Shown here one piece after another: positions 12,191 to 33,083 of a stretch of DNA of 37,129 bases. The position numbers were made by a program, and so were the translations under genes. Each line of letters begins with the position of its first letter. Positions within the stretch are counted from its first letter, which is position 1. The notes under the pieces are model-generated. The model was not told where the DNA came from. It did not search any database and saw only the letters and a list, made by a program, of their open reading frames with translations. Location of the stretch: contig NZ_RHOG01000030.1 in assembly GCF_003946405.1 (NCBI RefSeq), positions 1 through 37,129 on the forward strand. The letters run 5' to 3'. Origin of the DNA: Lacticaseibacillus yichunensis. GTDB taxonomy: Bacteria; Bacillota; Bacilli; Lactobacillales; Lactobacillaceae.

Positions 12191-12658
12191 ATGAATGACA
12201 CAAATACGATCGAAGAGATCACCCCGGCGGAATGGGAGGTCATGCGCATCATCTGGACGCTTGGCCAGGCTTCGGCCCACCAAGTGATCGACCTGCTCCA
12301 GCAAAAACGCGACTGGTCGGATTCGACGATCAAGACGCTACTGGGCCGGCTGGTGAAAAAAGGATTGCTTGAGACCAGCAAAGACGGCCGCAGTTTCATC
12401 TATAAGCCACTGATCTCTGAGACAGCGGCGATGAATGGGACAGCCAGCCAACTATTTTCCCATCTTTGTGCGATGAAGCGGGGCAAAACGTTGGTCGAGC
12501 TGATCGAAACGCTGCCGCTGTCGCGCGGCGACATCGAAACGCTGCAGGCCGCGCTGGCAAAGAAGCTGCCGGACGCGCCGGAAATGGTCGACTGCGACTG
12601 CCTACCAGGCGGGATGCAGGAAACTGACTGCAACTGCAAGGAGGACCACCATGACTGA
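12191..12658 (+). CDS. copY: CopY-type copper-responsive repressor
   Basis: This is a cytoplasmic repressor of the copper operon, of the BlaI/MecI/CopY winged-helix family. The N-terminal ~75 residues carry the DNA-binding domain (EWEVMRIIWTLG...STIKTLLGRLVKKGLL). The C-terminus has the metal site CDC-x6-CNC (CDCLPGGMQETDCNC), the hallmark that separates CopY from BlaI: Zn(II) keeps it on DNA and Cu(I) releases it. The length, 155 residues, is normal. ATG 12191 follows AAGAAGG. It overlaps copB by 8 nt, so the two are probably translationally coupled, and the two boxes upstream imply autoregulation. Confidence 0.95.
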   Translation: MNDTNTIEEITPAEWEVMRIIWTLGQASAHQVIDLLQQKRDWSDSTIKTLLGRLVKKGLLETSKDGRSFIYKPLISETAAMNGTASQLFSHLCAMKRGKTLVELIETLPLSRGDIETLQAALAKKLPDAPEMVDCDCLPGGMQETDCNCKEDHHD

Positions 12659-15047
12659 TGAGATGAAAGACAAGAAGCCAATGGGCGAAATGACGCACGA
12701 CGACATGACGGACATGGACCACAGCAAGATGGCTCATGGCGACATGGCAGGGATGGGCCACGAGAATATGAATATGGCTGATAACCAGATGGACCATATG
12801 GATATGAGCCATGGTGATATGTCTGACATGGACCACAGTGAAATGAGTCACGATAACATGCCGGGCATGGCTCACAGCCAGATGAGTCACGATGGGATGT
12901 CTGACATGGACCATAGCCAAATGAGCCATGACGAGATGTCTGACATGGATCATTCAAAGATGGATCACAGTCAGATGAACATGAATCATCACGATATGAG
13001 TCATATGGATATGAGCCACGGTAATATGGCCGGCATGGATCACATGAACATGGACCACGGCGACATGGACATGGCGATGCCGGGTGGCGGCCACATGCAC
13101 ATGAGCAATTTTAAACAGAAATTCTGGGTCTCGTTGATCGCGGCCGTACCGGTGTTTGTGCTGTCGCCGTTCATGGGGCTCCATCTACCGTTTCAGTTCA
13201 CCTTCCCCGGCTCTGATTGGATCGTGTTGATTCTTTCGACCTTCCTTTATATTTATGGCGGCGAGCCGTTCCTGTCAGGCGCGAAGGCGGAGCTGAAGGA
13301 CAAGGCACCGGCAATGATGACCCTGATCGCGATGGGTATCTCGGTTGCTTATGTTTATAGTATCTACGCATTTATTGCCAATCATTTTCTCTCGCCGCAG
13401 GGCCATGTGATGGACTTCTTCTGGGAGCTCGCCAGCCTGATCGTGATCATGCTGCTGGGCCACTGGATCGAAATGAATGCGGTGATGAGCGCAGGCAACG
13501 CGCTGGAGAAAATGGCGGCGCTTCTGCCTGGGTCCGCGCATGTCGTTGACAATGGCACGACGCGCGACATTCCGCTCAGTGACCTGCAAGAAGGGGCCAC
13601 GATTCAGATCTTGGCCGGCGAAAAGATTCCCGCGGATGCGCGCATTATCTCTGGGACCAGTGCAGTGAATGAGGCGCTGGTCACCGGCGAGGCCAAGGCG
13701 GTCGAAAAAAAGGCCGGCGATACCATCATCGGTGGGGCGGTCAATGGCAATGGCACACTGACGGCCACGGTCACTGGGACCGGCGAAAATGGGTACCTGG
13801 CGCAGGTCGCCAAACTCGTTAGTGAGGCCCAAGCTGAAAAGTCCAAGGCTGAGACGATGGCGGATCATGTTTCCCGTTGGCTGTTTTATGCCGCAATGGC
13901 GGTCGGGCTGATCGCGTTTTTCACCTGGCTGGCCATCGATGGAATGGATACTGGGCTTGAGCGGATGGTGACGGTGCTGGTCATCGCCTGTCCGCACGCC
14001 CTTGGGCTCGCCATTCCGCTGGTCGTTGCGCGCAGCACGTCCCTCGCCGCGACGCACGGGCTCTTGATCCGCGATCGGCAGGCGCTTGAATCGGCGAAAA
14101 ACGTCGACACGATTCTCATGGACAAGACCGGGACCCTGACTGAAGGCGTCTTCAAGGTCCACACGCTGGCTGCGTTTGGCGATGCCGATGAAAAGACGGT
14201 GCTCGCTGAGTTTGCCGGCCTGGAACAAAGCTCCAGTCATCCACTGGCTACCGGCATCTTGGATGAGGCAAAGGCGCGCGAAGTCACGCCGGCCTCAGCG
14301 GAAGAGGTGCAGGCGCTTCAAGGCGTTGGTCTGACTGGCACCGTGAATGGCCGCGCGCTGGCGATTGTCACGGCGGCTTATTTGGATGAAAACCAGATCG
14401 CATACGACAAGGCTCAATTCAAGACACTTGCGGGGGCCGGGAACTCGGTCAGCTATCTGATCGAAGACAAGACCGTGCGCGGGTTGATCGCGCAAGGGGA
14501 TGAAATCAAGCCGGCCGCGAAGTCGTTCATTGCGCAGCTGAAGAAAATGGGCATCACACCGATCATGCTGACAGGGGACAATCAGCCGGCTGCTGAAGCC
14601 GTTGCTGCCCAGCTTGGAGGCCTCGAAGTTCGCGCCGAGCTCAAGCCGGAAGACAAAGCCCGCATCGTGAAGGAGACGCAGGCCGCTGGTCACACTGTGA
14701 TGATGGTCGGCGACGGCATCAACGACGCGCCGAGTCTGGCTTCCGCCAACATCGGTGTGGCGATCGGCGCGGGGACGGATGTCGCGATCGACTCGGCCGA
14801 TGTGGTTCTGGTCAAGTCGGATCCACAGGACATCCTGAATTTCCTGACGCTGGGTCGTGCGACATCGCGCAAGATGACACAAAATCTCTGGTGGGGCGCT
14901 GGCTACAACATTCTCGCCATTCCGCTGGCGGCCGGTGTGCTGGCCGGGGTCGGCATCATCTTGAGCCCAGCAGTTGGGGCGCTGGTCATGAGCCTTTCGA
15001 CGGTCATCGTGGCGATCAATGCCATGACTTTGAAGATGACGGCTTAG
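12651..15047 (+). CDS. copB: CopB-like copper-exporting P1B-type ATPase with Met/His-rich N-terminal extension
   Basis: This membrane ATPase exports copper (possibly silver). The first 151 residues are a highly repetitive metal-binding tail with about 40 Met and 22 His, built from MxH and MDHS/MSHD units. The ATPase body follows: membrane helices, the actuator TGE (VTGEA), the metal-binding CPH motif at residues 447-449 in the sixth transmembrane helix (CPH rather than CPC marks the CopB branch), the phosphorylated Asp491 in DKTGT, the nucleotide-domain SSSHP (His530) and GDGINDAP (Asp688). Its 798 residues exceed a typical CopB because of the long tail. The start overlaps the end of copY and is preceded by AAGGAGG. 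A strong terminator follows. No copper chaperone (copZ) or CopA partner is seen. Confidence 0.95.
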
Positions 15048-18864: not shown

Positions 18865-19815
18865 GTGATCACATTATCGGATGTCGCCAAGAAAGCAAAT
18901 GTCTCGAAGATGACGGTGTCGCGGGTCATCAACCACCCAGAGCAGGTGACAGATGAGCTCAAACAGCTCGTCTTCGCGGCGATGAAAGACCTCGATTACC
19001 GGCCGAATGTGGCGGCGAAGGCACTGGCCAATAACCGCAGTCAGGTGATCAAGTTTTTCATTCTGGAAGATATCGACACCACCGAACCCTACTATATGAA
19101 TCTGTTGTTTGGCATCGCCAAGGGCCTGGATGAAAAACAGTACGCGCTGCAGCTGGTCACGAGCCGCAATTATGATCTGGGCAACTCGGACGGCTACATC
19201 ATCACCGGCGCCCGGGCCAAGGACCAGGAATGGCTCGACCGGCTGGAGAAGCCCGCGGTGGTGTTTGGTGAAAATCGGTACGGGTATGATTTTGTCGACA
19301 CGGATAATAAACAGGGCACGACCATGGCCACTGAATACGCGATCGCCAAGAATTACCAGTCGCTGGTGTTCATCGGCATCGATGTGAAAGAGGCATTCGA
19401 ATATTCGCGCGAAGCTGGCTTCATCAACACCATGCAGCAGCACCAGATGATTCCGAAGATCTACCGGATGGCCAACCACAGTCATTTGTCGGAACAGTTC
19501 ATCAATGATAATTGGCAAAAATTCGCCCGCAACACGGCATTTATTTGTGCCAGTGACCGCCTGGCGATCGGTATTGTCCGGGGGCTTGCGCATCATGATG
19601 CCGCCATTCCCAATGATTTTGGCGTGTTCGGCTTCGATGGCGTCTTTTTGGATCAAGTGTCCAATCCCAAACTCGCCACGGTCAAACAGCCGATTCAGGA
19701 ACTCGGCCGGCTGTGCGCCCGGATGTTGTTGCAAAAGATCGCGCAGTCTGGCTCGCCACAGGGAGAACTGCTGGTGACGCCGGAGCTTGTGATCCGCGAC
19801 TCGATGCGAAAATAA
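18865..19815 (+). CDS. malR: LacI/GalR-family transcriptional regulator, probable maltose regulator MalR
   Basis: The N-terminal helix-turn-helix (LSDVAKKANVSKMTVSRVINHPEQV, broken here by conserved positions) and hinge (YRPNVAAKALANN) are typical LacI. The rest is the periplasmic-binding-like effector domain, ending in the family's FGFDG and LATVKQP segments. It has 316 residues and starts with GTG 18865 after GAGGGGG. A -10-like TAAAAT lies about 22 nt upstream. It reads in the same direction as the mal genes 3.3 kb downstream, and in related lactobacilli a LacI-type regulator neighbours the maltose operon. Three LacI-type palindromes in front of malL, malE and malP are its likely targets. 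Their position upstream of the core promoters suggests activation. The assignment is from context. Confidence 0.8.
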   Translation: MITLSDVAKKANVSKMTVSRVINHPEQVTDELKQLVFAAMKDLDYRPNVAAKALANNRSQVIKFFILEDIDTTEPYYMNLLFGIAKGLDEKQYALQLVTSRNYDLGNSDGYIITGARAKDQEWLDRLEKPAVVFGENRYGYDFVDTDNKQGTTMATEYAIAKNYQSLVFIGIDVKEAFEYSREAGFINTMQQHQMIPKIYRMANHSHLSEQFINDNWQKFARNTAFICASDRLAIGIVRGLAHHDAAIPNDFGVFGFDGVFLDQVSNPKLATVKQPIQELGRLCARMLLQKIAQSGSPQGELLVTPELVIRDSMRK

Positions 19816-20088: not shown

Positions 20089-20541
20089 ATGAAGGATACT
20101 AAACGTGTCACGTATGGTAGAACATCTGTCTATAATCTCAATTACCACCTCATTTGGGGCACTAAATACCGAAACCGCGTTCTGAAAGGAAACGTCGAAG
20201 CTGTGCTTAAGCGAATCCTCTATGAGGTCGCCGCACAATATGGGTTCAGTATCGACCATATGGAGATTGGTAAGGATGACCACGTTCATTTGTTGGTGAG
20301 TGCACCGCCGAAATTGTCGGTGACTAACATCGTTCGGTGGTTAAAGGGTATTTCGGCTCGTCAAATGTTCGTTGAGTGTCCCGAACTTCAACGAAGCTAT
20401 TGGAAACACCAAGGGCGTCACCTGTGGTCACCCAGCTACTACGTCGAGAGTATCGGAACAACGAACCAGGAGGCTGTTGCTAAATACATTGATGATCAAC
20501 GGGCTAAGGAGCTGAACTCACTTGACCTTGAAGACCTTTAA
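20089..20541 (+). CDS. tnpA: IS200-type Y1 HUH transposase TnpA
   Basis: This single-strand transposase of 150 residues has normal family length. The metal-binding HUH motif is H65-V-H67 (DDHVHLLV). The nucleophile is Tyr133 in KYIDDQ, with Gln137 four residues on, matching the Tyr/Gln arrangement known for IS608 TnpA. It would excise and insert the element as a single-stranded circle, recognising the end hairpins. It overlaps tnpB by 20 nt. All catalytic residues are present. Confidence 0.96.
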   Translation: MKDTKRVTYGRTSVYNLNYHLIWGTKYRNRVLKGNVEAVLKRILYEVAAQYGFSIDHMEIGKDDHVHLLVSAPPKLSVTNIVRWLKGISARQMFVECPELQRSYWKHQGRHLWSPSYYVESIGTTNQEAVAKYIDDQRAKELNSLDLEDL

Positions 20542-21676
20542 GCTGCGCATCTATCCAAACGCAACGCAGCGCCAACAGATCGAACGTAACTTCGGTATGT
20601 GCCGCTTCGTGTGGAACGAACTACTCAACATGCAAATTCAACGCCATAATAATGGCGGTAAGTACCTCAATGAGTTTCAGATGAACTACCTGATCAAGCC
20701 ACTCAAACAGCAGTATCCCTGGCTCAAAGAGGCTGATGCGACTAGCCTGATTGCTGTCAGTCACAACTTGCACCTAGCGTTTCAGAATCTGTTCAAGAAG
20801 CGTGCCGGGTACCCTAAGTTCAAAGCCCGGCGCTTCGCTAAGCCAACGTACCGGGCCAATGCGGTCAACGGCAATATTGTGCTTACCGATGCAACCCATT
20901 TGCGCATGCCAAAGCTGGGCCCGATCCTGTTCCGTACGGGGCAGCGCCCAGTTGGTGAAATCAAAACTGCTACGGTGGTGCGCGACCGCGTGGGCGATTA
21001 TTACGTTCTAGTGGTTGCGGAAGTTGAACTAGAATTGTGGCCGAAGAGCGAGGCAGCGGTTGGACTAGACATGGGAATCGCAGACCTGGTCATCACCAGT
21101 GACGGCATGAAGTATCCCACCAAACGTTTCGACAAGGCTAACGCCAAGAAAAAACACTACTGGGAAAAACGCCTGGCTCGCCGGCGTGCACAAGCCGAAA
21201 AGGAAATCGCTTGGGACCGCCACCTTAAGCTGGAAGCCCCGCGGCAACTCAGTGACTTCAAAAACTATCTGAAGGCTAAGCGCATGGTGGCCAAATACAG
21301 CGCGAAGGAAGCCAACCAACGTCGCGACTATCTCCAGAAGCTCAGCACAGGACTTATACGCCAGTACGACCTGATCAAGCTAGAAGACCTGAAAACCAAG
21401 GGCCTCCTGCATAATCACAAGCTGGCTCGTGCCATCGTAAACCAGGCCTGGCGAGAATTACGCCTGATGCTTGAGTACAAGGCGGCCTGGTATGGTAAAC
21501 AAGTTGTGGTAGTATCGCCATACAAAACCTCGCAACGCTGTTCAAATTGCGGTTACGACGACGGAAAACACGAGCTAGACGTGCGCGAATGGATCTGTCC
21601 ACAGTGTGGCACGCGCCATGATCGTGATATTAACGCCGCTAAGAATATCTTGGCAGCTGAGCAACAAACAGTTTAA
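20522..21676 (+). CDS. tnpB: TnpB, RNA-guided nuclease of IS200/IS605 (Cas12-like ancestor)
   Basis: The 384-residue protein has the TnpB N-terminal region (FKLRIYPNATQRQQIERNFG). Its split RuvC site has Asp183 (GLDMGI), Glu288 (KLEDLKTKG) and Asp369 (HDRDINAAKN), and a CxxC...CxxC zinc ribbon lies near residues 340-365. In the studied members TnpB uses an RNA from the element's right end (omega RNA) to cut at sites next to the transposon's target motif, helping the element persist. The start is TTG 20522, inside the end of tnpA; TTG 20528 is an alternative. Length and residues indicate a functional copy. The probable RNA comes from the end of tnpB through about 21807. Confidence 0.95.
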   Translation: MTLKTFKLRIYPNATQRQQIERNFGMCRFVWNELLNMQIQRHNNGGKYLNEFQMNYLIKPLKQQYPWLKEADATSLIAVSHNLHLAFQNLFKKRAGYPKFKARRFAKPTYRANAVNGNIVLTDATHLRMPKLGPILFRTGQRPVGEIKTATVVRDRVGDYYVLVVAEVELELWPKSEAAVGLDMGIADLVITSDGMKYPTKRFDKANAKKKHYWEKRLARRRAQAEKEIAWDRHLKLEAPRQLSDFKNYLKAKRMVAKYSAKEANQRRDYLQKLSTGLIRQYDLIKLEDLKTKGLLHNHKLARAIVNQAWRELRLMLEYKAAWYGKQVVVVSPYKTSQRCSNCGYDDGKHELDVREWICPQCGTRHDRDINAAKNILAAEQQTV

Positions 21677-22542: not shown

Positions 22543-22616
22543 TCGTATGCGAGAGGTGCCGACAAAATCGTAACAGTCAACTGGTAGGAAAAGGGAGGAG
22601 AACATAAACGTCTCAA

Positions 22617-23014
22617 GCACCCGAGCCAAGTTAGCTGCCCACCCAAAAAGCGCTCGGCTCCGCACCCTTCAGTTGGGCTGCGGCCCGCATGTCGGAAGCA
22701 TCTAGGCGTCTCATGCACGTATGGCCAAGGACGCCATACGCGCCCGAGCCGACCTAGCTGTTCCGCCATCCCGCGGGCCTCCGCACCCTTTCCTAGTCAG
22801 GCTGCGCCGAGCAGGGGTGGGACAGATAGTCGTCCCGGTCGCCCGATGGCAAAAAACGCCATCAACCGCCCGGGCCGAACTATCTGCCCACCCCAAAGCG
22901 CTCGGCTCCGCACCCTCAGTTGGGCTCCGGGGGCCAGGCCTGAGACAGATAGTCGTCCCGGTCGTTCGATGGCCAAGTACGCCATCAACCGCCCAGGCCG
23001 AACTACCTGCTCAG
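22617..23014. repeat. Hairpin-element array 1 (three full units plus a half unit) upstream of malL
   Basis: Three long hairpins lie about 124 bp apart. Unit A (22690-22765): CATCTAGG/CCTAGCTG and CGTATGGC/GCCATACG. Unit B (22814-22894): GGGGTGGG/CCCACCCC, CAGATAGT/ACTATCTG and GATGGC/GCCATC. Unit C (22940-23014): CTGAG/CTCAG, CAGATAGT/ACTACCTG and GATGGC/GCCATC. 22617-22640 is the right half of a further unit. Between units are small hairpins of the CCGCACCC...GGGCTGCGG type. Paired bases change together between units. It ends 31 nt upstream of the malL operator. I see no gene in 22545-23040. Confidence 0.8.
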
Positions 23015-23045
23015 ACCTCCCGGCCCCCTCCGCACCCTCCTCTTT

Positions 23046-23107
23046 TGTTATCGCTAACAGGCGCTTGCTGGTTGCTCCCGGTGGCGCATTTTTTTACGCT
23101 TAGGAGG
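23046..23107 (+). promoter_or_regulatory. malL promoter with upstream LacI-type operator
   Basis: Palindrome TGTTATCGCTAACA at 23046-23059 is followed after 33 nt by TTTACGCTTAGGA at 23093-23105. The same box, at the same spacing, lies in front of malP. A weak core promoter TTGCTC (23073-23078) / TACGCT (23095-23100) fits, placing the operator centre near -54. The ribosome-binding site GAGGGG is at about 23116-23121. Confidence 0.65.
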
Positions 23108-23127
23108 AACAAAGAGAGGGGATAACT

Positions 23128-24807
23128 ATGGCGAAGTGGTTTGATAATGCGGTGATCTACCAGATCTATCCGAAGTCGTTTCAGGACAGCAATGGCGATG
23201 GCATCGGCGACCTGGCGGGGATCCGCCGGCGCATTCCGTATCTGGTCTCACTTGGCATCAACGCGGTGTGGCTCAATCCTGTGTTTGTGTCGCCGCAAGT
23301 GGACAATGGCTATGATATTGCGAACTATTTTGCCATCGACCCGGCGATGGGGACGATGGCCGACATGGAAGGGCTGATCGCCGACCTGCACCAGCACGGC
23401 ATCCACCTGATCATGGATTTTGTCCTCAACCACACGTCGGATCAGCATCCCTGGTTTCAAGACGCGATCGCCGACCCGAAGAGCATTTACCGCGACTACT
23501 ATCTGTTCGCCGGGGAAAATGGAAAACGGCCCAACAACTGGGGCAGCTTTTTCGGCGGGTCGGTGTGGGCCCCGGATCCAGCGGGCACGGGGCAGTCGTA
23601 TTTTCACCTATTCGACAAGCATATGCCGGATCTGAATTGGCAAAATCCGGAGGTGCGCCATGCGATAAGGGATGTCGCCGATTTTTGGCTGAACAAAGGC
23701 GTCGATGGGCTTCGGTTGGATGCTTTCATCCACATCGCCAAGGCGGATCTGCGGCAGGACTTTCCGCTGGCCCCAGGTGAAAAATCGCCGGTGGTCGCCG
23801 AGCCATTTTTCGCCAATCTGCCGAATGTCCAGGCGTGGCTGCGGCCATTTTGCGCGCAGATCAGAACGGATTATCCGGACACATTTTTGCTGGGCGAGGC
23901 GGCGAGCGCGAATGTCAATTTGGCGGTGGATTATACGAGCAAGCATAACGGGTTGATGGACAGCGTGATCACGTTCCGGACGTTTGCCGACGACGATCGC
24001 CAAGTGGATCCGCGGATTCCAGCGGGGATGCAGCCGCAGCCAATGGATATTCCAGCGTTCAAGCAAAACCAGGTGACGTGGCAACAAACGCTCGCCGGAG
24101 TGTCGCTGCCGGTGCTTTATTGGAACAATCACGACATGCCGCGGGTGGCGACGCGTTACGCCAAGCCCGGGCCGCTGCATGACACGCAGGTGAAGAGTCT
24201 GGCGATGCTGATGTACTTGCAGCGCGGGATTCCGGTGATCTATTACGGCGAAGAGCTCGGCATGGAAAATATGGCGCTGCCGGATCAAGCGGCGTTCAAT
24301 GACTTGAATGTCGATGACTTCTTTGCGCAAGCCAAGGCGGCGGGCTATGAAGACGATGCGATCTTGGCGATGGTCAACGCGACGCATAAGATGCCGGCGC
24401 GCGGGCCGATGCAGTGGCAGACCGGCGCCAACAGCGGCTTTTCCACGCATCAGCCGTGGCTAGATGGCCAGCGGGACGAGACGCGCAATGCCCGCGATGA
24501 GGAAGCACAAGGGGGCAGCGTGTTACACTTTTATCAGGCCCTGATTCAGTTGAAAAAGACGCCGTTGTTTGCAGGCGGCGATGACTTTTTGCAGACCACG
24601 GATGATCGCAGTTATGTGTATGAACGGCGGCTTGACGGCGCCCGCGCGCTGGTGGCAATCAACTTGACGGATCAGCCGCTGACGCTGGCGGCACCGTCTG
24701 CTGGGGCCACGGCGCGCTTGACCGCTGGCACCGCAACGCTGAGCGGTGATCAGCTCACGCTCAGCCCGTATGCTGGGGTGGTCTATGTTGAAGAGATGGA
24801 GGACTAA
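23128..24807 (+). CDS. malL: GH13 alpha-glucosidase / oligo-1,6-glucosidase-type enzyme (MalL-like)
   Basis: This cytoplasmic glycoside hydrolase of the GH13 oligo-1,6-glucosidase group has 559 residues. The (beta/alpha)8 catalytic residues are nucleophile Asp198 (GLRLDAF), acid/base Glu257 (LLGEA) and Asp336 (NNHDMPR). The fifth conserved region reads MPDLN at 166-170, the form known for enzymes intermediate between oligo-1,6-glucosidases (QPDLN) and neopullulanases (MPKLN). The residue after the nucleophile is Ala rather than the Val of isomaltases, which suggests alpha-1,4 preference (maltase or maltodextrin glucosidase); this is inference. It is the first gene of its unit, three bases from the neopullulanase gene. 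It probably releases glucose from imported maltodextrins. Confidence 0.92.
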   Translation: MAKWFDNAVIYQIYPKSFQDSNGDGIGDLAGIRRRIPYLVSLGINAVWLNPVFVSPQVDNGYDIANYFAIDPAMGTMADMEGLIADLHQHGIHLIMDFVLNHTSDQHPWFQDAIADPKSIYRDYYLFAGENGKRPNNWGSFFGGSVWAPDPAGTGQSYFHLFDKHMPDLNWQNPEVRHAIRDVADFWLNKGVDGLRLDAFIHIAKADLRQDFPLAPGEKSPVVAEPFFANLPNVQAWLRPFCAQIRTDYPDTFLLGEAASANVNLAVDYTSKHNGLMDSVITFRTFADDDRQVDPRIPAGMQPQPMDIPAFKQNQVTWQQTLAGVSLPVLYWNNHDMPRVATRYAKPGPLHDTQVKSLAMLMYLQRGIPVIYYGEELGMENMALPDQAAFNDLNVDDFFAQAKAAGYEDDAILAMVNATHKMPARGPMQWQTGANSGFSTHQPWLDGQRDETRNARDEEAQGGSVLHFYQALIQLKKTPLFAGGDDFLQTTDDRSYVYERRLDGARALVAINLTDQPLTLAAPSAGATARLTAGTATLSGDQLTLSPYAGVVYVEEMED

Positions 24808-24810
24808 CAG

Positions 24811-26559
24811 ATGGAATTAGCAGCACTTCGGCACCGCCCGGAAAGTGAAGATGCCTTTTTGTATGACCCGACTCACATGCGCGTGCGCTTGCACGCCAAG
24901 GCGGGGGATGTCGCAGGCGTCTCCGTTTTGTTCAACGACCCGAACTGGTTTGAAGACCGCGATGGCAAGATGACGTTCATTTATCACGAAAAGACGTTGG
25001 CGAAACTTGGCACGGGCCAGCTTCAGGAATACTGGGGTACCACGCTCACGGCGCCGTATCGCCGCCTGCAGTACCTCTTTGTGGTGACCGGCACGGATGG
25101 CACCACCACGCTGTTTGGCGATCGCGGCACACGCGCGGATTCAGAAGCGGAGCGCCAGGAGCTCGGCAATTATTTTCGGATGCCGTATTTTCACCAGATC
25201 GACCGGGTCAAAACGCCGGATTGGGTGAAGGAAACGGTGTGGTATCAGATTTTTCCGGAGCGCTTTGCCAATGGCGATAAGACCAACGATCCGGACGGCA
25301 CGAAGCCGTGGCAGCCAAGCGACCATCCCGGCCGTGACGATTATTATGGCGGCGATTTGCAGGGCATCCTGGATCATCTGGATGACCTGCAGGAATTGGG
25401 TATCAACGGGCTGTATTTTTGCCCGCTGTTCAAAGCCAGCTCCAACCATAAATACGACACGATCGATTACCTTGAGATCGACCCGGATTTTGGCGACAAG
25501 GCGCTGTTTGCCAAGCTCGTCAACGAGGCCCACAAGCGCGGCATGAAGGTGATGCTGGACGCGGTGTTCAATCACATGGGCTACGCGTCGCCGCAGTGGC
25601 TGGATGTTGTTGAAAATGGCGAGCAGTCCCGCTTCAAGGACTGGTTCCACATTTACGAATTCCCGGTGACCCCTTACCGCAACCCGGTGCTCAAGGAAGG
25701 CGCGCCGCAATTTGACACGTTTGCGTTTGGTGACAACATGCCCAAGCTCAACACGGCCAACCCCGAGGTGCAAGACTATCTGTTGACGGTGGCGACGTAT
25801 TGGATCAAGCAGTTTGATATCGACGCATGGCGGCTGGATGTGGCCAACGAGGTCGATCATCATTTCTGGGCAAAGTTCAATGCGGCGTGCAAGGCGGTCA
25901 AGCCGGACTTCTACATTCTCGGTGAGATCTGGCACTCCAGCCAAAATTGGCTCAATGGCACCGAATTTGACGGTGTGATGAATTATGCGTTCACCCAGCA
26001 GATCGAGGACCACTTCCTGACGGGAAAACAGGACGCGAAAACGGCGATGGCGCTGCTGGTCGATCAGCTGATGCTGTATCGCGACCAGACGGATCAGGTG
26101 ATGCTCAACATGCTGGATTCCCATGACACGCCGCGCATTCGGACGATCGCAGGGGGCGATGAGGACAAGGCGCTGCAGGCGCTGGCCTTTACGTTCCTGC
26201 AGACCGGCGCGCCGTGCATTTACTACGGCACCGAAATGGGGATGGAAGGGGCCAACGATCCGGATGACCGCAAGCCGATGGACTGGTCGCAGCTCGGCCA
26301 GCCGATCTGGCAGCGCGTCCAGCAACTGATCGCGCTTCGGCACCGTTTTGCCAAGCTGCTCGGCACCGGTACCACTCAGCTTGAGGTGCGCGAAGATGGT
26401 CTGATTCAGGTGACGCGCAAGCTCGCTGACCAGACTTTGATCGGCTTGTTCAACACAACGGATCAGCCAGTCGCTATTGAGGTCAAGGCCCCGGCCTACA
26501 CCCAGCAGTTTGGCGATGGCGCGCTTTTGCCGCTTGGGGTTGCCGTATCCATCAGCTGA
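24811..26559 (+). CDS. Neopullulanase / maltogenic amylase (GH13)
   Basis: This 582-residue GH13 enzyme has an N-terminal CBM34-like beta domain (~1-120, ALRHRPESEDAFLYD...), typical of the neopullulanase, maltogenic amylase and cyclomaltodextrinase group, which usually dimerises through it. The catalytic residues are Asp343 (WRLDVANE), Glu372 (ILGEIW) and Asp439 (DSHDTPR). MPKLN at 310-314 is the neopullulanase signature. There is no signal peptide, so it acts inside the cell on imported maltodextrins or cyclodextrins, giving maltose for the phosphorylase. GGAGG lies just upstream, within the end of malL, so the two are cotranscribed. Substrate choice within the group cannot be read from the sequence. 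Confidence 0.93.
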   Translation: MELAALRHRPESEDAFLYDPTHMRVRLHAKAGDVAGVSVLFNDPNWFEDRDGKMTFIYHEKTLAKLGTGQLQEYWGTTLTAPYRRLQYLFVVTGTDGTTTLFGDRGTRADSEAERQELGNYFRMPYFHQIDRVKTPDWVKETVWYQIFPERFANGDKTNDPDGTKPWQPSDHPGRDDYYGGDLQGILDHLDDLQELGINGLYFCPLFKASSNHKYDTIDYLEIDPDFGDKALFAKLVNEAHKRGMKVMLDAVFNHMGYASPQWLDVVENGEQSRFKDWFHIYEFPVTPYRNPVLKEGAPQFDTFAFGDNMPKLNTANPEVQDYLLTVATYWIKQFDIDAWRLDVANEVDHHFWAKFNAACKAVKPDFYILGEIWHSSQNWLNGTEFDGVMNYAFTQQIEDHFLTGKQDAKTAMALLVDQLMLYRDQTDQVMLNMLDSHDTPRIRTIAGGDEDKALQALAFTFLQTGAPCIYYGTEMGMEGANDPDDRKPMDWSQLGQPIWQRVQQLIALRHRFAKLLGTGTTQLEVREDGLIQVTRKLADQTLIGLFNTTDQPVAIEVKAPAYTQQFGDGALLPLGVAVSIS

Positions 26560-26563
26560 TTCT

Positions 26564-26624
26564 GATAACGGTAACAAAGGTTTATTGATTGTAAAAGCGG
26601 TTTCAACTTTGCATAATAAAATAC
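26564..26624 (+). promoter_or_regulatory. malE promoter with LacI-type operator and cre-like site
   Basis: Operator TGATAACGGTAACA at 26564-26577 has one mismatch to TGTTANCGNTAACA. The -35 TTGTAA (26589-26594) and -10 CATAAT (26612-26617) are 17 nt apart. A cre-like TAAAAGCGGTTTCA at 26592-26605 has one mismatch to TGNAANCGNTTNCA and lies between the two hexamers, fitting CcpA repression. The leader to malE is ~130 nt, with GGGAGGAAT before the start. Confidence 0.7.
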
Positions 26625-26753
26625 GTAAGGCAGCGACAGGCGAACTTAGATGAAATAATTTTGGCTAGACCAATTTTTAAAATCATATGAGCTCACTTAT
26701 CGACACTTCAAGTTAGGCGTTATCAGTCTATTTCATTAGGGAGGAATAGCATT

Positions 26754-27989
26754 ATGAAGTTATGGAAAAAGGTCATCATGGGGAGCGCATCGCTGGTTGC
26801 GATCACGCTGCTCGCAGCTTGCGGCTCCGGTTCGTCGTCCAGCGATAGCTCGACGAAGAGCTCTACTGCCACCAAGATCTCCGGCGATGTCACCCTCTGG
26901 GTCGATACCGCGCAGGTGCCGTCTTATAAGAAACTGGTCGCCAGTTTTGAAAAGAAGTACCCGGATGTCAACGTTAAGCTGACGCAAAGCCCGAACGGCT
27001 CATCCAACGCGAAGACGGATGTCGGCAAGGACCCAGCCAAGGCTGCGGATGTTTTCCAGGTGCCAAATGATCAGCTGGGGCAAATGGCTGAAGCCGGCTA
27101 CATCAATCCGCTGTCGCCAGACGCAGAAAAGGAAGTCAAGGCCGACAACATCGACATGGCCGCCACTGCGATGACCTGGAAGGATAAGATGTACGGTTAT
27201 CCATGGGCTCAGCAAGCCAACATCCTTTATTACAACAAGAGCAAATTGTCCGCAGACGATGTGAAGTCTTGGGACAGCTTGACGGCTAAAGGTGTGATCG
27301 GGCTGGACTTCACCGTGCCATACAACGTCTATCCTGTTTTCCTGACCGCCGGCACCAAGCTTTACGGCGATGATGGCGAAACACTGGACGGCTCCACGGT
27401 TGCTTCCGACGAAGGCGTGGCCGCGATGAAGTGGTTCGCACAGCAAAAGGCGAACAAGGGTGTCATGCAGACGTCCAACGCGTTGAACCAGCTCAAGGCT
27501 GGCAAGGTCGGCGCGATCATCGACGGCCCATGGGATGCCACGAACATCAAGAACTTGCTCGGCGATAACTTCGCTGTGACGACTCTGCCAACGCTGACCA
27601 TCAATGGCGAGCAAAAGCAGATGCAGGCATTTATCGGCGTGATGGCCTTCGCTGTCAACTCGCACACCGCGACCAAGAACCAAAAGGCCGCCCAGACGTT
27701 GGCCGCTTGGGTCACCAACAAGGCTGGTCAGACCGAACTTTACAAGAGCCAAGGTCAGATTCCTGTTAACAAGGAAGCCCTTGATGCCTCTGATGTAAAG
27801 GCTGATCCGGTTGCCGTTGCGGTCGACAAGCAGTCCGCCGTTTCGACGTTGATGCCGAAGATGCCGCAAATGGCAACGGTCTGGAATGATGCGGCGGCGC
27901 TGACCAACGGCGCGTACACCGGCTCCATCAAGGCGGCCGACTACATGACGCAGCTCCAGAAGTTCCAAGACGCCATTTCGAAGAAGTAA
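26754..27989 (+). CDS. malE: Maltose/maltodextrin ABC transporter substrate-binding lipoprotein
   Basis: The 411-residue extracellular binding protein is anchored by lipid. The signal peptide ends in the lipobox LAAC, with Cys23 as the modified residue, followed by a Ser/Thr-rich linker. The mature part is a family 1 solute-binding fold (VTLWVDTAQVPSYKKLVASFEKKYP split by variable positions; later the W-rich ligand region YGYPWAQQANILYYNKS and IDGPWDATN). It captures maltose and maltodextrins and delivers them to MalF-MalG. It has its own promoter. A partial terminator at 28006-28034 between malE and malF would let the binding protein be made in excess over the permease. Confidence 0.94.
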   Translation: MKLWKKVIMGSASLVAITLLAACGSGSSSSDSSTKSSTATKISGDVTLWVDTAQVPSYKKLVASFEKKYPDVNVKLTQSPNGSSNAKTDVGKDPAKAADVFQVPNDQLGQMAEAGYINPLSPDAEKEVKADNIDMAATAMTWKDKMYGYPWAQQANILYYNKSKLSADDVKSWDSLTAKGVIGLDFTVPYNVYPVFLTAGTKLYGDDGETLDGSTVASDEGVAAMKWFAQQKANKGVMQTSNALNQLKAGKVGAIIDGPWDATNIKNLLGDNFAVTTLPTLTINGEQKQMQAFIGVMAFAVNSHTATKNQKAAQTLAAWVTNKAGQTELYKSQGQIPVNKEALDASDVKADPVAVAVDKQSAVSTLMPKMPQMATVWNDAAALTNGAYTGSIKAADYMTQLQKFQDAISKK

Positions 27990-28005
27990 TTTAAGACGCT
28001 CGAGC

Positions 28006-28034
28006 AAAGGTTGGGCCGTGCGCTCAACCTTTTC
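28006..28034 (+). terminator. Attenuator-type hairpin between malE and malF
   Basis: AAAGGTTGGGC 28006-28016 pairs with GCTCAACCTTT 28022-28032 (G-T pairs included), with a short T run. malF has no promoter of its own, so partial read-through is likely. Confidence 0.65.
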
Positions 28035-28054
28035 TCTTAAAAGGAGAAGGTTCT

Positions 28055-29413
28055 ATGTTTAAGAGAAAAAATAAGCGCAAGCCCGCAGCGACATACAGGG
28101 AAGTCTTCACCAAAGGCGACTGGGCGACCAAGCTCTCGTTCGTCGTGATGGGGGCCAGCCAGTTGAAGCACAAACAATGGGCAAAAGGCCTGGCCTTTTT
28201 ACTCATCGAAGTCGGCTTCTTCGTTTGGCTCATCCACACTGGGATCAGTGAGCTGTCGCTTTTCACCTCGCTGGGCCCGATCAAGGCCAAAAAAGTGGTC
28301 TTCGACAACGCCCAGGGGATCTACATCACCAAGTTGCCGAGCAATTCGGTGGTCATCCTGCTGTTCGGGGTGCTGGCGCTGATCATCTTGGCGGCGCTGA
28401 TCGGCCTGTATATCTTCAACTTGCGCTCGACCCGCAATCTTTATGTCGCAGACCGCGACCATGAAACGATCGAGACCAACAAACAGGAGCTCAAGTCCCT
28501 GTTTGATACCCGCCTGCACGCGACGTTGATGACCATTCCAATCATTTTGATTGTGGCCTTCACCGTCTTGCCGACGATGTACATGATCTCGATGGCGTTT
28601 ACTAATTATAACCGCGAGCACGCGATCGCCTTTTCCTGGACCGGGTTCCAGGCGTTCGGGCAAGTCCTTTCCGGGGACCTGGCCGGCACGTTCTTCCCAG
28701 TTTTGGGTTGGACGCTGCTGTGGGCGGTGATGGCCACGGCCACCACGTTCTTCTTCGGCGTTTTGCTGGCGATGCTGATCGAATCAAAAGGAATACGCTT
28801 CAAAGGCTTCTGGCGCACGCTGTTCATCATCGTGTACGCCGTGCCGCAATTCGTGTCACTACTTTTGATGGCGCAGTTCCTTGATCTGCAAGGGCCACTG
28901 AACAACTTGCTGCTCAGCTGGGGCTGGATCGATCACGCGATCAACTTCATCGGCGCCTCCGCCAATCCGTGGGTCGCGCGGGCCACGGTCATCGTGGTCA
29001 ACATGTGGATCGGGATTCCGGTGTCCATGCTGGTCTCCACCGCGATCATTCAGAACCTGCCGCAAGATCAGATCGAAGCGGCGCGGATGGATGGGGCGGG
29101 TCCCCTTCAAGTTTTCCGCCACATCACGTTCCCGCAGATCTTGTTCGTCATGGCGCCGAGTCTCATCCAGCAGTTCATCGGCAACATCAACAACTTCAAC
29201 GTCATCTATCTGTTGACGGGCGGGTATCCGATGAACAACAACTACAACGGTGCCGGCGATACCGACCTGCTTGTCACGTGGTTGTATAATCTGACATTCG
29301 GGCAGCTGCAGCGCTACAACGCCTCTGCGGTCTTGGGGATCTTGATCTTCATCATCAGTGCGGTGTTCTCGCTGCTGGCATACCGTCGCACAAACGCATT
29401 CAAGGAGGGCTAA
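28055..29413 (+). CDS. malF: Maltodextrin ABC transporter permease MalF
   Basis: This 452-residue polytopic membrane protein has a basic cytoplasmic N-terminus (MFKRKNKRKPAATYREV). An extra hydrophobic segment (AFLLIEVGFFVWLI) and a second segment around residue 100 come before the conserved permease core, a pattern typical of MalF proteins of Firmicutes. The EAA loop, which contacts the ATPase, is EAARMDGAGPLQVFRHITFP. A good AAAGGAGAAGG ribosome-binding site precedes ATG 28055. The stop is followed after four nt by malG. It forms the channel heterodimer with MalG. The ATPase partner is not encoded in the window. Confidence 0.94.
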   Translation: MFKRKNKRKPAATYREVFTKGDWATKLSFVVMGASQLKHKQWAKGLAFLLIEVGFFVWLIHTGISELSLFTSLGPIKAKKVVFDNAQGIYITKLPSNSVVILLFGVLALIILAALIGLYIFNLRSTRNLYVADRDHETIETNKQELKSLFDTRLHATLMTIPIILIVAFTVLPTMYMISMAFTNYNREHAIAFSWTGFQAFGQVLSGDLAGTFFPVLGWTLLWAVMATATTFFFGVLLAMLIESKGIRFKGFWRTLFIIVYAVPQFVSLLLMAQFLDLQGPLNNLLLSWGWIDHAINFIGASANPWVARATVIVVNMWIGIPVSMLVSTAIIQNLPQDQIEAARMDGAGPLQVFRHITFPQILFVMAPSLIQQFIGNINNFNVIYLLTGGYPMNNNYNGAGDTDLLVTWLYNLTFGQLQRYNASAVLGILIFIISAVFSLLAYRRTNAFKEG

Positions 29414-29417
29414 CGAG

Positions 29418-30275
29418 ATGAAATCTTATCATGAACGTCAACGCGTCTCCTTGATCTCGCGTTATGTGTTGTTGATCTTCTTGGCGCTGGTCTGGCTGTT
29501 TCCAATCGTGTGGATCGTGCTCGCGAGTTTTTCCTATAACGACACGGGCTTTATTTCCACGATCTGGCCGGAGCAGTTCACCATTCAAAACTATGTCGGG
29601 ATCTTGACCAACAGCCAGTTCCCATTCCTGTACTGGATCCGCAACACCCTGGTGGTCTCCTTGGTCTCCATGGTGCTGTCGACCTTTGTAACGATCTCCG
29701 TGGCGTATTCGCTGTCTCGGCTGCGTTTCAAATTCCGGAAGCCGTTTCTGCAGATTGCCTTGGTCCTGGGGATGTTCCCTGGGTTCATGTCGATGATCGC
29801 CTTGTACTACATTCTGAAGTCCTTCAACATGCTGAACCTGGCCGGTTTGACGATGGTCTACATCGGTGGCGCGGGCCTCGGGTTCTACATTGCAAAAGGG
29901 TTCTTCGACACCATTCCGATCGCGATCGATGAGGCGGCCGTGATGGATGGCGCAACCAAGTGGCAAAGCTTCATTCACGTGGGCCTGCCGCTGTCGCGCC
30001 CGATGATCGTCTACACCGCCTTGACCACCTTCATGGCGCCATGGGTCGACTTCATCTTCTCAGGGATCATCCTGAGTTCATCCGGCAACCCAAAGGACTA
30101 CACCATCGCGTATGGCCTGTACAACATGCTGCACAGCGCAAAAGGCGCCTCAACCACCTACTTCGCGCAGTTCATCGCAGGATGTGTGATCATCGCCATC
30201 CCAATCACCATCATCTTCGTGATCATGCAGAAGTTCTACGTGAACGGCATTACACAGGGCGCGGATAAAGGATAA
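29418..30275 (+). CDS. malG: Maltodextrin ABC transporter permease MalG
   Basis: This 285-residue permease has about six membrane helices and the EAA loop DEAAVMDGATKWQSFIHVGLPLSRP (split by variable positions). I chose ATG 29418, after AAGGAGGG in the end of malF, over the longer frame from 29358, which overlaps malF and starts inside its coding sequence. The C-terminus ends NGITQGADKG, typical for the family, which supports a complete gene. A shared malG/malF organisation is normal, but here the next gene is not an ATPase. Hairpin units and a terminator follow instead. Confidence 0.94.
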   Translation: MKSYHERQRVSLISRYVLLIFLALVWLFPIVWIVLASFSYNDTGFISTIWPEQFTIQNYVGILTNSQFPFLYWIRNTLVVSLVSMVLSTFVTISVAYSLSRLRFKFRKPFLQIALVLGMFPGFMSMIALYYILKSFNMLNLAGLTMVYIGGAGLGFYIAKGFFDTIPIAIDEAAVMDGATKWQSFIHVGLPLSRPMIVYTALTTFMAPWVDFIFSGIILSSSGNPKDYTIAYGLYNMLHSAKGASTTYFAQFIAGCVIIAIPITIIFVIMQKFYVNGITQGADKG

Positions 30276-30603
30276 CCAGTGCGGAGACCCGCGCTTATGA
30301 CCGGACAGCTAGCTGCGGCAAGCGCTTTGCTCGCGTCCTTTGCGAGCAGAGTGATTGACGTTGCTAGATGCGCCGGTCATGCGGGGCGCAGCACGAGGAT
30401 GAGAACCAGTGCGGAAGCCCGCGGTTATGGTCGTGCAGCTAGGCTCGCCTTGCGCATTGGACCGGTCTTAGGCCAGTGTGTGAGGCGACCTAGATGTCTC
30501 GACCATGCGGGCTGGAGCACGACGATTCTGAAATGGCGGACGTCCGCAACTGGTGGCGCGAAATGGCGGAGCGCCAATCTAACATATTGGCGCACGCAAC
30601 CAG
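30276..30603. repeat. Hairpin-element array 2 between malG and malP
   Basis: Two direct units start with CCAGTGCGGA at 30276 and 30406 (period 130). Unit D pairs ATGACCGG 30297-30304 with CCGGTCAT 30373-30380, CAGCTAGC with GCTAGATG, and TGCTCGC 30328-30334 with GCGAGCA 30342-30348. Unit E pairs ATGGTCG 30427-30433 with CGACCAT 30500-30506, CAGCTAGG 30436-30443 with CCTAGATG 30489-30496, and CGCCT with AGGCG. A further hairpin is GCGCCAAT 30571-30578 / ATTGGCGC 30586-30593. Units D and E match unit A of array 1 in the opposite orientation. I see no gene here; the ORFs are stem by-products. Confidence 0.8.
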
Positions 30604-30682
30604 AACGACCAACGCACCGCCACCCCGGCCCTCCGCACCCATTTTCCCAATAACCCAGCGCCCGCCAACCACAAGGCGCACC

Positions 30683-30719
30683 AAAAAAGCGGGACAAACG
30701 CGTATTGCCCCGCTTTTTT
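30683..30719. terminator. Terminator of the malEFG unit
   Basis: AAAAAAGCGGGACAA 30683-30697 pairs with TTGCCCCGCTTTTTT 30705-30719 (one mismatch). It separates malEFG and hairpin array 2 from the malP promoter. Confidence 0.85.
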
Positions 30720-30732
30720 CGACCGGTGATGT

Positions 30733-30794
30733 TGTTATCGGTAACACCAAGGCGTCTGTTGTCGTGCCGCCTGGCTGCCTTTACGCTTAGGAAT
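30733..30794 (+). promoter_or_regulatory. malP promoter with upstream LacI-type operator
   Basis: TGTTATCGGTAACA at 30733-30746 is followed after 33 nt by TTTACGCTTAGGA at 30780-30792, the same arrangement as malL. TTGTCG (30759-30764) and TACGCT (30782-30787) form a weak core promoter with 17-nt spacing, putting the operator near -54. Confidence 0.65.
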
Positions 30795-30824
30795 GTGAAC
30801 AGTGACAAGGAGAAGTGAAGACAT

Positions 30825-33083
30825 ATGAAACGAATTTTTGAGATCGATCCTTGGGTGATCAAAAGTCGCACGCTGAACCCCGAAGACAAGCGCCTCCAGG
30901 AGAGCCTGACCGCGATCGGCAACGGCTACATGGGCATGCGCGGCAACTTTGAGGAAGGCTATTCCGGCGACCACCTGCAAGGCACCTACTTGGCCGGCGT
31001 CTGGTATCCAGACAAGACCCGCGTTGGCTGGTGGAAAAATGGGTATCCCGAGTATTTTGGCAAGGCAATCAACGCCCCGAGCTTTATCGACTTCGGGCTG
31101 ACGCTCAATGGCGTGAAAATTGATCTGGCGACCCTTCGACCGAGTGATTTTTCCCTCGAGCTGGACATGCACCAGGGCCTGCTGACGCGCAGCTTCGTCG
31201 TCGAGGCAGGCGGCGCCAAGGTTCGGCTCACCTTCCAGCGCTTCTTATCCAACGAGATCAAGGAAGCGGGGCTGATCAAGCTGACCGCCGAGGCCTTGAC
31301 GGGGACGGCGACGCTCACGGCGACCCCGGCGCTTGATGGCAATGTCGTCAACGAAGACTCGAATTACGAGGATAGTTTCTGGCAGCCGCTGGGTGAAAAT
31401 CGTGAGGCGGAGACCATTCAGTTGATCACCAAGCCAAATCCGTTCAAGGTGCCACAATTCAGTGTGTTGCTCAAACAACACACCACGCTGAACGGCCAGC
31501 CGCTTCAAGGCACCGCCACCTCAACCAGTGGCCGGGTCCAGCGCGAGGCGAGCTTCACGCTGGCTGCCGGCGAGACGGCGGAGCTGGTCAAAACAGTGAT
31601 TGTGGTCACGAGCCGTGATGTGCCAACGGAGGCTCAGGCTGAGGCGGCGGAGACGCTGATGGCGCAGGCACTGGAGGCTGGCTGGGCCGGGTTGCTCGAT
31701 GCGCAGACGACTATTTGGGCGAAGCGCTGGGCGTTGTCGGATGTTGTGATCGACGGCGATGAGGCCGCGCAACAGGGCATCCGCTTCAACATTTTCCAAC
31801 TCTTCATGACGTATTATGGTGAGGATAAACGGCTGAACATCGGGCCAAAGGGCTTCACCGGCGAAAAATACGGTGGCGCGACCTATTGGGACACCGAGGC
31901 CTATATCGTGCCGATGTATTTGGCCACGACCAAGCCCGATGTGACCCGCGCGCTGCTCCAATATCGCCACGACCAGCTGCCCGGCGCATATCACAACGCC
32001 CAGCAACAGGGTCTTGCCGGGGCGCTGTTTCCGATGGTGACGTTCAATGGCATCGAATGTCACAACGAGTGGGAGATCACGTTTGAGGAGATTCACCGCA
32101 ATGGGGCAATCGCGTTTGCCATCAAGCAGTACACCGATTACACAGGCGATGAGTCCTATGTCAACGAAACGGGCATCGATGTGTTGGTTGGCATCAGCCG
32201 CTTTTGGGCGGACCGGGTGCATTTTTCCCAGCGCAAAGGCCAGTACATGATCCATGGTGTCACCGGGCCCAACGAGTATGAAAACAACGTCAACAATAAC
32301 TGGTACACCAACACGATGGCCCAGTGGACGCTGCAATACACACTGGCGCGCCTGCCGAAAGCGGACAAGGCTGTCGTTGAAAAATTGGCGGTCTCCGATG
32401 CGGAAAAGACGCACTGGCAGGACATCATCGACCGGATGTATTTTCCGGAAGACAAGGACCTTGGCATCTTCGTGCAGCACGACACGTTCCTGGACAAGGA
32501 CCTGCGCCCGGCCAGCAGCATTCCTGCCGATCAACGGCCGATTAATCAGCACTGGTCCTGGGATCACATTCTGCGCAGCCCGTACATCAAGCAGGCGGAT
32601 GTCTTGCAGGGCATCTATTTCCTGAATGACCGCTTCACGCGCGAACAAAAGGAGAAGAACTTCGACTTTTACGAACCGCTGACGGTGCATGAAAGCTCGT
32701 TGAGTGCCTCGATTCACGCGATCTTGGCGGCGGAGCTTGGCAAGGAAGACAAGGCCGTCGAGTTGTATGCCCGCACCGCGCGGCTGGATCTGGACAATTA
32801 CAACAACGACACGACAGACGGGTTGCACATCACCTCGATGTCCGGCTCGTGGCTCGCAATCGTCCAGGGCTTTGCGGGGATGCGCGACAACGATGATCAA
32901 CTGTCATTCAAGCCGTTTTTGCCAAAGGACTGGACGCATTACAGCTTCAAGATCCTGTACCGCGGGCGCACGCTGGCGATCTCGGTCACCCGCGAAGGCA
33001 CGGACATCGCGTTGGTGGCCGGCCCGGCACTGACCGTTGTCATTAACGGCAAGGCTGTAGCATTGCCGGCAGCTGAAAATTAA
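30825..33083 (+). CDS. malP: Maltose phosphorylase (GH65)
   Basis: This cytoplasmic enzyme converts maltose plus phosphate to D-glucose and beta-D-glucose-1-phosphate, saving ATP compared with hydrolysis. Its 752 residues are normal for GH65. The N-terminal beta-sandwich starts [22 protein letters not shown] (split by variable positions), and the (alpha/alpha)6 barrel contains the catalytic acid Glu484 in [14 protein letters not shown]. The segments [11 protein letters not shown] and [30 protein letters not shown] mark the active site. ATG 30825 follows AAGGAGAAG. It has its own promoter and operator and is followed by a strong terminator and pgmB. Kojibiose or trehalose phosphorylase are possible by family, but the maltose context decides. 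Confidence 0.94.

Follow-up and report, generated by a model that had tools for sequence, protein, structure and literature searches.

The window analysed here is a whole contig (NZ_RHOG01000030.1; 37,129 nucleotides (nt); contig C24) of the Lacticaseibacillus yichunensis genome, which comprises 2.56 Mb in 73 contigs with a GC content of 55%. Beside its mal-type genes it carries two arrays of long hairpins. These array units are members of one dispersed family of about 121 nt per unit, and their hairpin fold is selected. Our preferred reading, held with slightly more confidence than doubt, is that of a large, old family of structured repeats whose RNA fold acts at the 3' ends of messenger RNAs (mRNAs).

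A dispersed family in head-to-tail arrays

A BLAST query with array 1 gave at least 53 matches in the genome, and one with array 2 at least 37. A covariance model built from 43 units gave at least 150, all end to end; copy numbers are lower bounds throughout. We collected 59 stretches around elements, two of which overlap, and added the window. These 739,740 bases hold 203 full and 23 partial units in 105 arrays, and the units cover 25.6 kb, or 1.0% of the genome length. The genome-wide search that a preliminary description of five hairpins in the window had proposed reveals a far larger family, which is not confined to mal genes.

The members in the window are as follows:

22608..22667, minus strand: truncated unit, model positions 1-60 (5' half), closing array 1 at its 3' side
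22671..22788, minus strand: full unit A of array 1 (covariance model 106.4 bits, model positions 1-121)
22795..22915, minus strand: full unit B of array 1 (covariance model 125.3 bits)
22918..23037, minus strand: full unit C of array 1 (124.6 bits), its 5' end facing the 5' side of the gene at 23128
30277..30398, plus strand: full unit D of array 2 (74.3 bits), starting 1 nt past the stop codon that ends at 30275
30407..30524, plus strand: full unit E of array 2 (covariance model 87.2 bits)

The five stem-loops first described are real, since all match one covariance model end to end, and a sixth unit, of which only the 5' half is present, accompanies them. The opposite orientation of the two arrays had been recognised correctly, and so had the paired base changes between units, the common CAGNTAG stem and a single mismatch common to units A, D and E. 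This mismatch is a G.A opposition that is frequent across the family (G in column 33 in 140 of 147 rows, A in column 93 in 123 of 147). The extent of array 2 had to be corrected: it ends near 30524 and not at 30603, and the unit borders were also revised.

Units are arranged head to tail, and none of the 105 arrays is of mixed orientation. Among the 23 partial units, 16 are 5' parts at the 3' side of an array and two have internal deletions; the covariance model matched the other five over their full length. In 81 of 102 arrays another unit begins no more than 16 nt past the last full one (3 of 102 at a control offset), so that the usual array consists of n full units and the start of a truncated one. 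Adjacent units are scarcely more alike than random pairs (mean identity 0.728, n = 158), with a minority of near-identical neighbours. In some array flanks we noticed by eye remnants in which the basal parts are joined and the hairpin is missing (L245, L247, L251, L244, L205, L233, L221). They are what deletion between the short repeats on either side of the hairpin would leave, and they suggest that hairpins were lost repeatedly.

The fold is supported by covariation

Each unit folds into a single long hairpin with interruptions, at whose base lie a closing stem and a GNA/GNA internal loop. In alignment A1, 95.0% of the cells are paired, compared with 30–39% when the alignment is slid. Changes on both sides occur in 31 of 41 pairs, the covariation score is 0.504 (0.05–0.10 slid), and none of 500 shuffles reaches any of the five observed measures. 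Slid and shuffled controls thus lie far below the observed values, which excludes chance. The 147 distinct rows from the own genome are 96.5% paired, with changes on both sides in 32 of 41 pairs and a score of 0.542 (0.04–0.09 slid). For species of the genus these values are 90.9%, 41 of 41 and 0.792 (control at most 0.128), and for other genera 94.0%, 38 of 41 and 0.888 (at most 0.155). Alignments A2 to A6 were fitted to the model structure; A1, the basal stem and a sequence-only alignment of orthologous units were not. A5 has 35 rows, of which one (L339) is a reverse-strand echo of another; it was kept in the covariation, basal-stem, loop and G.T/A.C counts for other genera and left out of the stop-codon test described below.

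The basal stem, GNGY/RCNC, lies outside the model and is 95.0% paired in other genera. One of its pairs occurs there in all four Watson-Crick types (TA 16, AT 8, CG 6, GC 4, in addition to TG 1). For this stem, two of the five measures were reached by 90 and 109 of 500 shuffles. All four conserved letters of the GNA/GNA loop, which lies between the basal stem and the first helix, are present in 134 of the 147 own-genome rows and in 28 of 35 from other genera. The variability of position 8 led us to reject a K-turn at the base of the hairpin. The inner module is the least regular part: all of its modelled pairs form in 97 of 178 units, compared with 173 of 203, 154 of 198 and 102 of 109 elsewhere.

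The modules of the stem are combined in a mosaic fashion. Normalised association is 0.41–0.50 between neighbouring modules (0.08–0.15 shuffled), 0.16–0.27 between modules two apart (0.09–0.11) and 0.14 between modules three apart (0.06), as expected if central segments are exchanged between units.

The fold of one strand is conserved, and units that stayed in place are constrained

Among non-Watson-Crick oppositions at paired positions, G.T far exceeds A.C: 442 to 41 in the 147 rows of the own genome, 141 to 15 in the genus and 77 to 13 in other genera. It is therefore the fold of one particular strand that is conserved. This evidence favours RNA, in which G.U pairs are tolerated and A.C pairs are not; single-stranded DNA is also compatible with it.

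A comparison with a sister species (genome G021, 93% identical over the locus) allowed us to follow units in place. Reciprocal best matches with an identity of at least 0.86 gave 33 orthologous unit pairs. Of 2681 paired positions 93 differ, compared with 103 of 1268 unpaired ones (P = 1e-9). Watson-Crick double changes number 8, compared with 1.2 in simulations (P = 4e-5), while 19 single changes turn a pair into a mismatch (46.2 simulated). G.T-forming changes number 32 (37.7 simulated) and A.C-forming ones 13 (32.8 simulated). Together with the covariation in the own genome, the genus and other genera, this constraint in place strongly supports the earlier proposal that selection maintains the structure. 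A covariance test had been named beforehand as a possible refutation; covariation was found.

Could the covariation have arisen by mutation alone? Long imperfect palindromes are prone to templated correction, and quasipalindrome correction combined with gene conversion could restore complementarity without selection. Exchange between units is likely, and the module association drops with distance along the stem, as such a process would have it. However, correction would treat G.T and A.C alike, yet G.T is kept, and both the G.A opposition and the GNA/GNA loop persist uncorrected. We therefore consider a purely mutational origin very unlikely.

The strand preference also bears on a role of the hairpins at the DNA level, in which a cruciform or protein-binding site, as in bacterial interspersed mosaic elements (BIMEs), would serve the chromosome and be indifferent to transcription. 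The genome-wide spread of the family and the near-even orientation of the adjacent genes (see below) would suit such an element. A cruciform folds both strands, so that tolerance of G.T on one of them is unexpected, and it is the 5' end of the arrays, not the 3' end, that abuts stop codons (the control at the 3' end is imperfect). On balance this explanation seems very improbable.

Arrays often begin at a stop codon

Gene calls came from a simple script, and arrays were classed after removal of weak frames that overlapped them; 100 of 105 arrays overlap called genes by at most 60 nt. For 99 arrays, the orientations of the upstream and downstream genes are ++ in 26, -- in 35, +- in 21 and -+ in 17. 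Of 102 arrays, 27 have a sense stop codon within -3 to +10 nt of the 5' end, compared with 1 that has an antisense stop as near to the 3' end (P = 3e-8). In other genera the corresponding counts are 17 of 34 and 2 of 34 units, obtained with a crude open reading frame (ORF) rule and including arrays that contributed more than one unit. In eight arrays a TAG stop is completed by the first G of the element. This polarity suggests that part of the arrays may act at mRNA 3' ends; arrays in other positions would be tolerated or act otherwise.

Where its 5' end lies within a few nucleotides of the upstream stop codon, the hairpin would open the 3' untranslated part of the mRNA. There it could act as is reported for repetitive extragenic palindromic (REP), ERIC and NEMIS sequences, by shielding the message from 3' exonucleases, by offering a cleavage site or by hindering ribosomes at the stop codon. 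Array 2 would in this way tune the malEFG mRNA. The units do not appear to be terminators of their own strand: inspected by eye, they show no regular run of T past the 3' end. A leader, GATTCA, stands behind a run of T in eight of 102 arrays (among them L212, L229, L230, L240, L243 and L258), and in L243 the linker that leads to the next unit contains part of it again.

In the window, array 2 is bordered by these features:

29358..30275, plus strand: ORF of a MalG-like permease; its stop abuts array 2, and the true start may be further in
30683..30719, no strand assigned: inverted repeat with 15-nt arms (93% complementary) and A/T ends, situated between array 2 and the following gene and by eye resembling a terminator

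MalG is the best NCBIfam model for the product of 29358..30275, with a score under the model's cut-off. That array 2 starts right after the malG stop agrees with its earlier placement in the probable 3' untranslated part of malEFG. A terminator scan listed no terminator in 30250–30850. Array 1 lies upstream of the gene at 23128 (malL in the preliminary description), which encodes a protein of the alpha-amylase family whose best NCBIfam models are phosphotrehalases, under their cut-off. A simple consensus scan found no promoter adjoining this gene; such a scan does not exclude one.

Sites persist and units change between sister species

Both flanks of 51 of the 105 arrays lay inside the sister stretches that were fetched, and 42 of these have full units on both sides. 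Units occupy the same place in the sister for 46 of the 51 arrays, often in different numbers, and none are present for five. In reverse, comparison was possible for 47 of the 76 sister arrays, one of which lacks a unit in this genome. Four of these six zero-unit sites retain the start or half of a unit (by eye), so that they look like contractions or deletions and not like empty targets; one further site (L220/L313) is ambiguous.

The best unit identity between orthologous arrays is at least 0.88 in 29 of 42 cases and 0.66–0.84 in the other 13, a group that falls roughly in the range of random unit pairs (mean 0.71, standard deviation 0.07). Both mal arrays belong to this low group, with best identities to sister units of 0.78 and 0.77. 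Comparison of sister strains had been suggested for these two sites, and different yet structured units were found there (structural model 124.2, 89.9 and 87.1 bits). At the site of array 1 the sister carries a single full unit, of a different type, and then a near-identical truncated unit. A weaker match of 49.4 bits also lies in the sister's mal region (L299, 16399–16516).

Where a unit lacks a partner at the orthologous site, a sister unit elsewhere often matches it at an identity of 0.85–0.98 (pairs differing in length by more than 8 nt were scored 0 and not compared). In the cleanest case, 40 nt upstream of the site are identical between the species and the units are only 70% alike. Each of the two has a close counterpart at a different site within its own genome (97.5% or 99.2% identical), and the identity stops near the unit ends. 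Common sites thus have differing contents, and near-identical units stand at different sites. We infer that units have been duplicated, lost and copied between sites. A CRISPR-like polarity, with new units at one end only, was not apparent by eye in the unit matrices; the order in L251 and L256 looks exchanged.

If the hairpins act at mRNA 3' ends, their copying would result incidentally from slippage and ectopic exchange at the conserved ends, or would proceed via a further factor. The same data could also be produced by a selfish cassette. Its folded strand, DNA or RNA, would be recognised by an enzyme that copies units between sites, and the structure would be kept because only foldable units are copied, with no function for the host. 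Three observations are in line with this idea: different sites hold near-identical units, with the identity breaking off at the unit ends; units unpartnered at their orthologous site frequently have matches elsewhere; and the one-strand structure goes with no consistent gene orientation. Against it, orthologous units that were not displaced show constraint at their paired columns, the compared sites revealed no clean new insertion, and none of the enzyme families PF01797, PF00078 and TIGR02249 tracks the hairpin family. We regard a selfish cassette as possible, if rather unlikely.

Several observations weigh against an RNA fold that acts at mRNA 3' ends. Without the inner, mostly wobble pairs, the ratio of G.T to A.C falls to 293:142 over 332 units. 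It is only 17:12 in the order-level alignment (13 rows), and the orthologous pairs show a modest excess of G.T over A.C (P = 0.024). Orientation is near even, with a sense upstream gene in 47 of 99 arrays and an antisense one in 52, and array 1 stands antisense to the gene next to its 5' end. When the limit is set at 15 nt, the stop-codon contrast becomes 27 of 102 arrays at the 5' end and 4 of 102 at the 3' end; even so, it is an upper estimate, because the uncounted unit starts behind most arrays push antisense stops outward and lower the 3' count. A run of at least five T lies just upstream of 15 of 102 arrays, where little transcript may remain. Finally, some of the differing contents at common sites may go back to longer ancestral arrays from which each species lost different units.

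Candidate partner enzymes

A Y1 transposase (PF01797) was found in 13 of 30 genomes of the genus and was not found in the high-copy genomes G001, G006, G011 and G014, which have at least 50 to 60 family matches each. Mobilisation by a Y1 transposase (RAYT) was therefore rejected as a requirement. The own genome has two Y1 matches of equal score; one is an IS200/IS605 TnpA beside TnpB and the other lies on contig C3. The window itself contains an IS200/IS605 element with TnpA and TnpB at 20089–21676, with no link to the hairpin family shown. A reverse transcriptase (PF00078) occurs in 11 of the 30 genomes and is missing from G000, G021, G001, G006 and G011, which include this genome and its sister. 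No genome of the 30 has an integron integrase (TIGR02249) over the cut-off; lower matches occur in all 30 and presumably represent XerC/D-type recombinases. Neither of these enzymes was retained as a partner, as their presence does not track the family. No partner enzyme was thus found among Y1 transposases, reverse transcriptases and integron integrases; other transposase families were not searched.

These results also bear on integron-like cassettes, in which the hairpin would be an attC-type site. Arrays of folded units, conserved ends, strand-specific folding and the replacement of units all recall such a system. However, there is no integron integrase over the curated cut-off in the 30 genomes, more than 100 arrays are found in the sampled part of one genome, and the two ends form no matching core-box pair (by eye, compared with the attC consensus). 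We consider an integron-like system extremely unlikely.

A more speculative reading, which we find doubtful, would be a new cassette-exchange system. Units of 121 nt would be recognised as one folded strand and copied among more than 100 standing sites without a Y1 transposase, reverse transcriptase or integron integrase. Sites would be kept and hairpins reshuffled in each species, possibly re-tuning mRNA 3' ends genome-wide.

Relation to known repeats

The preliminary description had suggested REP/BIME-like or miniature inverted-repeat transposable element (MITE)-type sequences. The likeness to REPs holds for position: the family is of high copy number, extragenic and folded, with many units near stop codons, and array 2 follows malG. 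Membership fails on unit length, on the missing Y1 gene and on orientation. The hairpin unit has about 121 nt, 41 modelled pairs and a GNGY/RCNC foot, unlike the 5–13 bp stems given for REPs in excerpts of a published account (PMC3733652). By eye, no GTAG or CGTC tag stands at its foot. The lack of a Y1 transposase in several high-copy genomes excludes the GTAG kind only, as the same excerpts describe CGTC REPs without a dedicated transposase (PMC3733652). They also state that GTAG REPs often supply the TAG stop of a flanking ORF and report G-T pairing (PMC3733652); the supply of a TAG stop by the element is common to both. An excerpt citing Liang et al. 2015 has it that REPs less than 16 nt from the stop codon lower translation (PMC12306157). 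In BIMEs, REPs alternate in orientation, whereas the hairpin arrays are direct, with 0 of 105 mixed. As for MITEs, each unit is an inverted repeat over its full length, none of the compared sites was cleanly empty so that a target duplication could be read, and the Y1 transposases gave no partner.

ERIC elements measure about 127 bp, and ERIC and NEMIS elements are mostly single copies and not arrays of differing units. The hairpin family differs in that it does form such arrays. By description, all three are folded intergenic repeats, and the hairpin units are similar in length to ERIC. Excerpts of one study portray ERIC and NEMIS as intergenic repeats that are cotranscribed with flanking genes and form RNA hairpins (PMC1590033). 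The Efa (EFAR) elements of Enterococcus faecalis, set beside the family by description only, are folded intergenic repeats from the same bacterial order. EFAR elements are modular and palindromic, of variable length and with many sequence types. Preliminary mRNA-stability data for Efa elements are mentioned in the same excerpts (PMC1590033). The family also differs from integron attC sites, given the lack of an integron-type integrase over the cut-off in 30 genomes. BOX, RUP and other Gram-positive stem-loop repeats are dispersed, non-coding and structured, and they differ from the hairpin family in length and layout. In its way of working, the family would be most like REP and ERIC repeats, while membership in REP or BIME fails.

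No Rfam family matched in the window at its gathering score. Seven loci gave six weak Rfam matches, all under the gathering scores, of which three fall on units (microRNA models, E = 0.22–0.58). The best of the six, RefB11 (E = 0.015), falls outside the units of its locus and was taken as chance. Our searches of open-licence papers brought up no description of the hairpin family.

Distribution in lactic acid bacteria

Model R1 detected the family in 24 of 29 other genomes of the genus and in none of 30 outside it. The apparent restriction to the genus was overturned by the genus-level model R2, which found it in 123 of 301 Lactobacillaceae genomes and 19 of 40 genera. In an order-wide draw, 13 of 198 genomes matched, nine of them outside the bacterial family; these out-of-family matches are less strong and less numerous. 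One of the loci (L358) has two units side by side, which suggests that such matches are real.

Among 80 named loci around a relative of maltose phosphorylase, seven have matches. They come from L. daqingensis, Lentilactobacillus rapi, Levilactobacillus acidifarinae, Paucilactobacillus kaifaensis and Secundilactobacillus silagei and, weakly, from Agrilactobacillus fermenti and Pilibacter termitis. L. daqingensis has the best named relative of the family-65 glycosyl hydrolase of the window (74% identical), and its locus holds two units. The Lentilactobacillus rapi locus has an array of four units and then the start of a fifth. A blastn query with array 1 found no match in plasmids and phages.

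Other features of the window

Two similar palindromes, GTTATCGCTAAC and GTTATCGGTAAC (23047–23058 and 30734–30745), precede the genes at 23128 and 30825. They look like operator sites, possibly for a LacI-type regulator such as the one at 18865. Between 586 and 10524 lie two large adjacent ORFs in the same frame, by eye a repeat-rich surface protein, parted by a stop codon at 5068–5070; they look like one interrupted gene. The frame at 12651–15047 resembles a P-type ATPase with an N-terminus very rich in His, Met and Asp and stands beside a regulator-like frame, both named by reading the sequence.

Implications

The sampled part alone gives the family 1.0% of this genome, and it occurs in many lactobacilli; the family has no match in Rfam and no description in the papers searched. 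Common sites that hold differing units in sister species are natural swap experiments at many genes, and they bear on whether such repeats tune gene expression or are selfish. The sharing of whole folded cassettes between sites without an evident enzyme is the concrete problem that the family poses.

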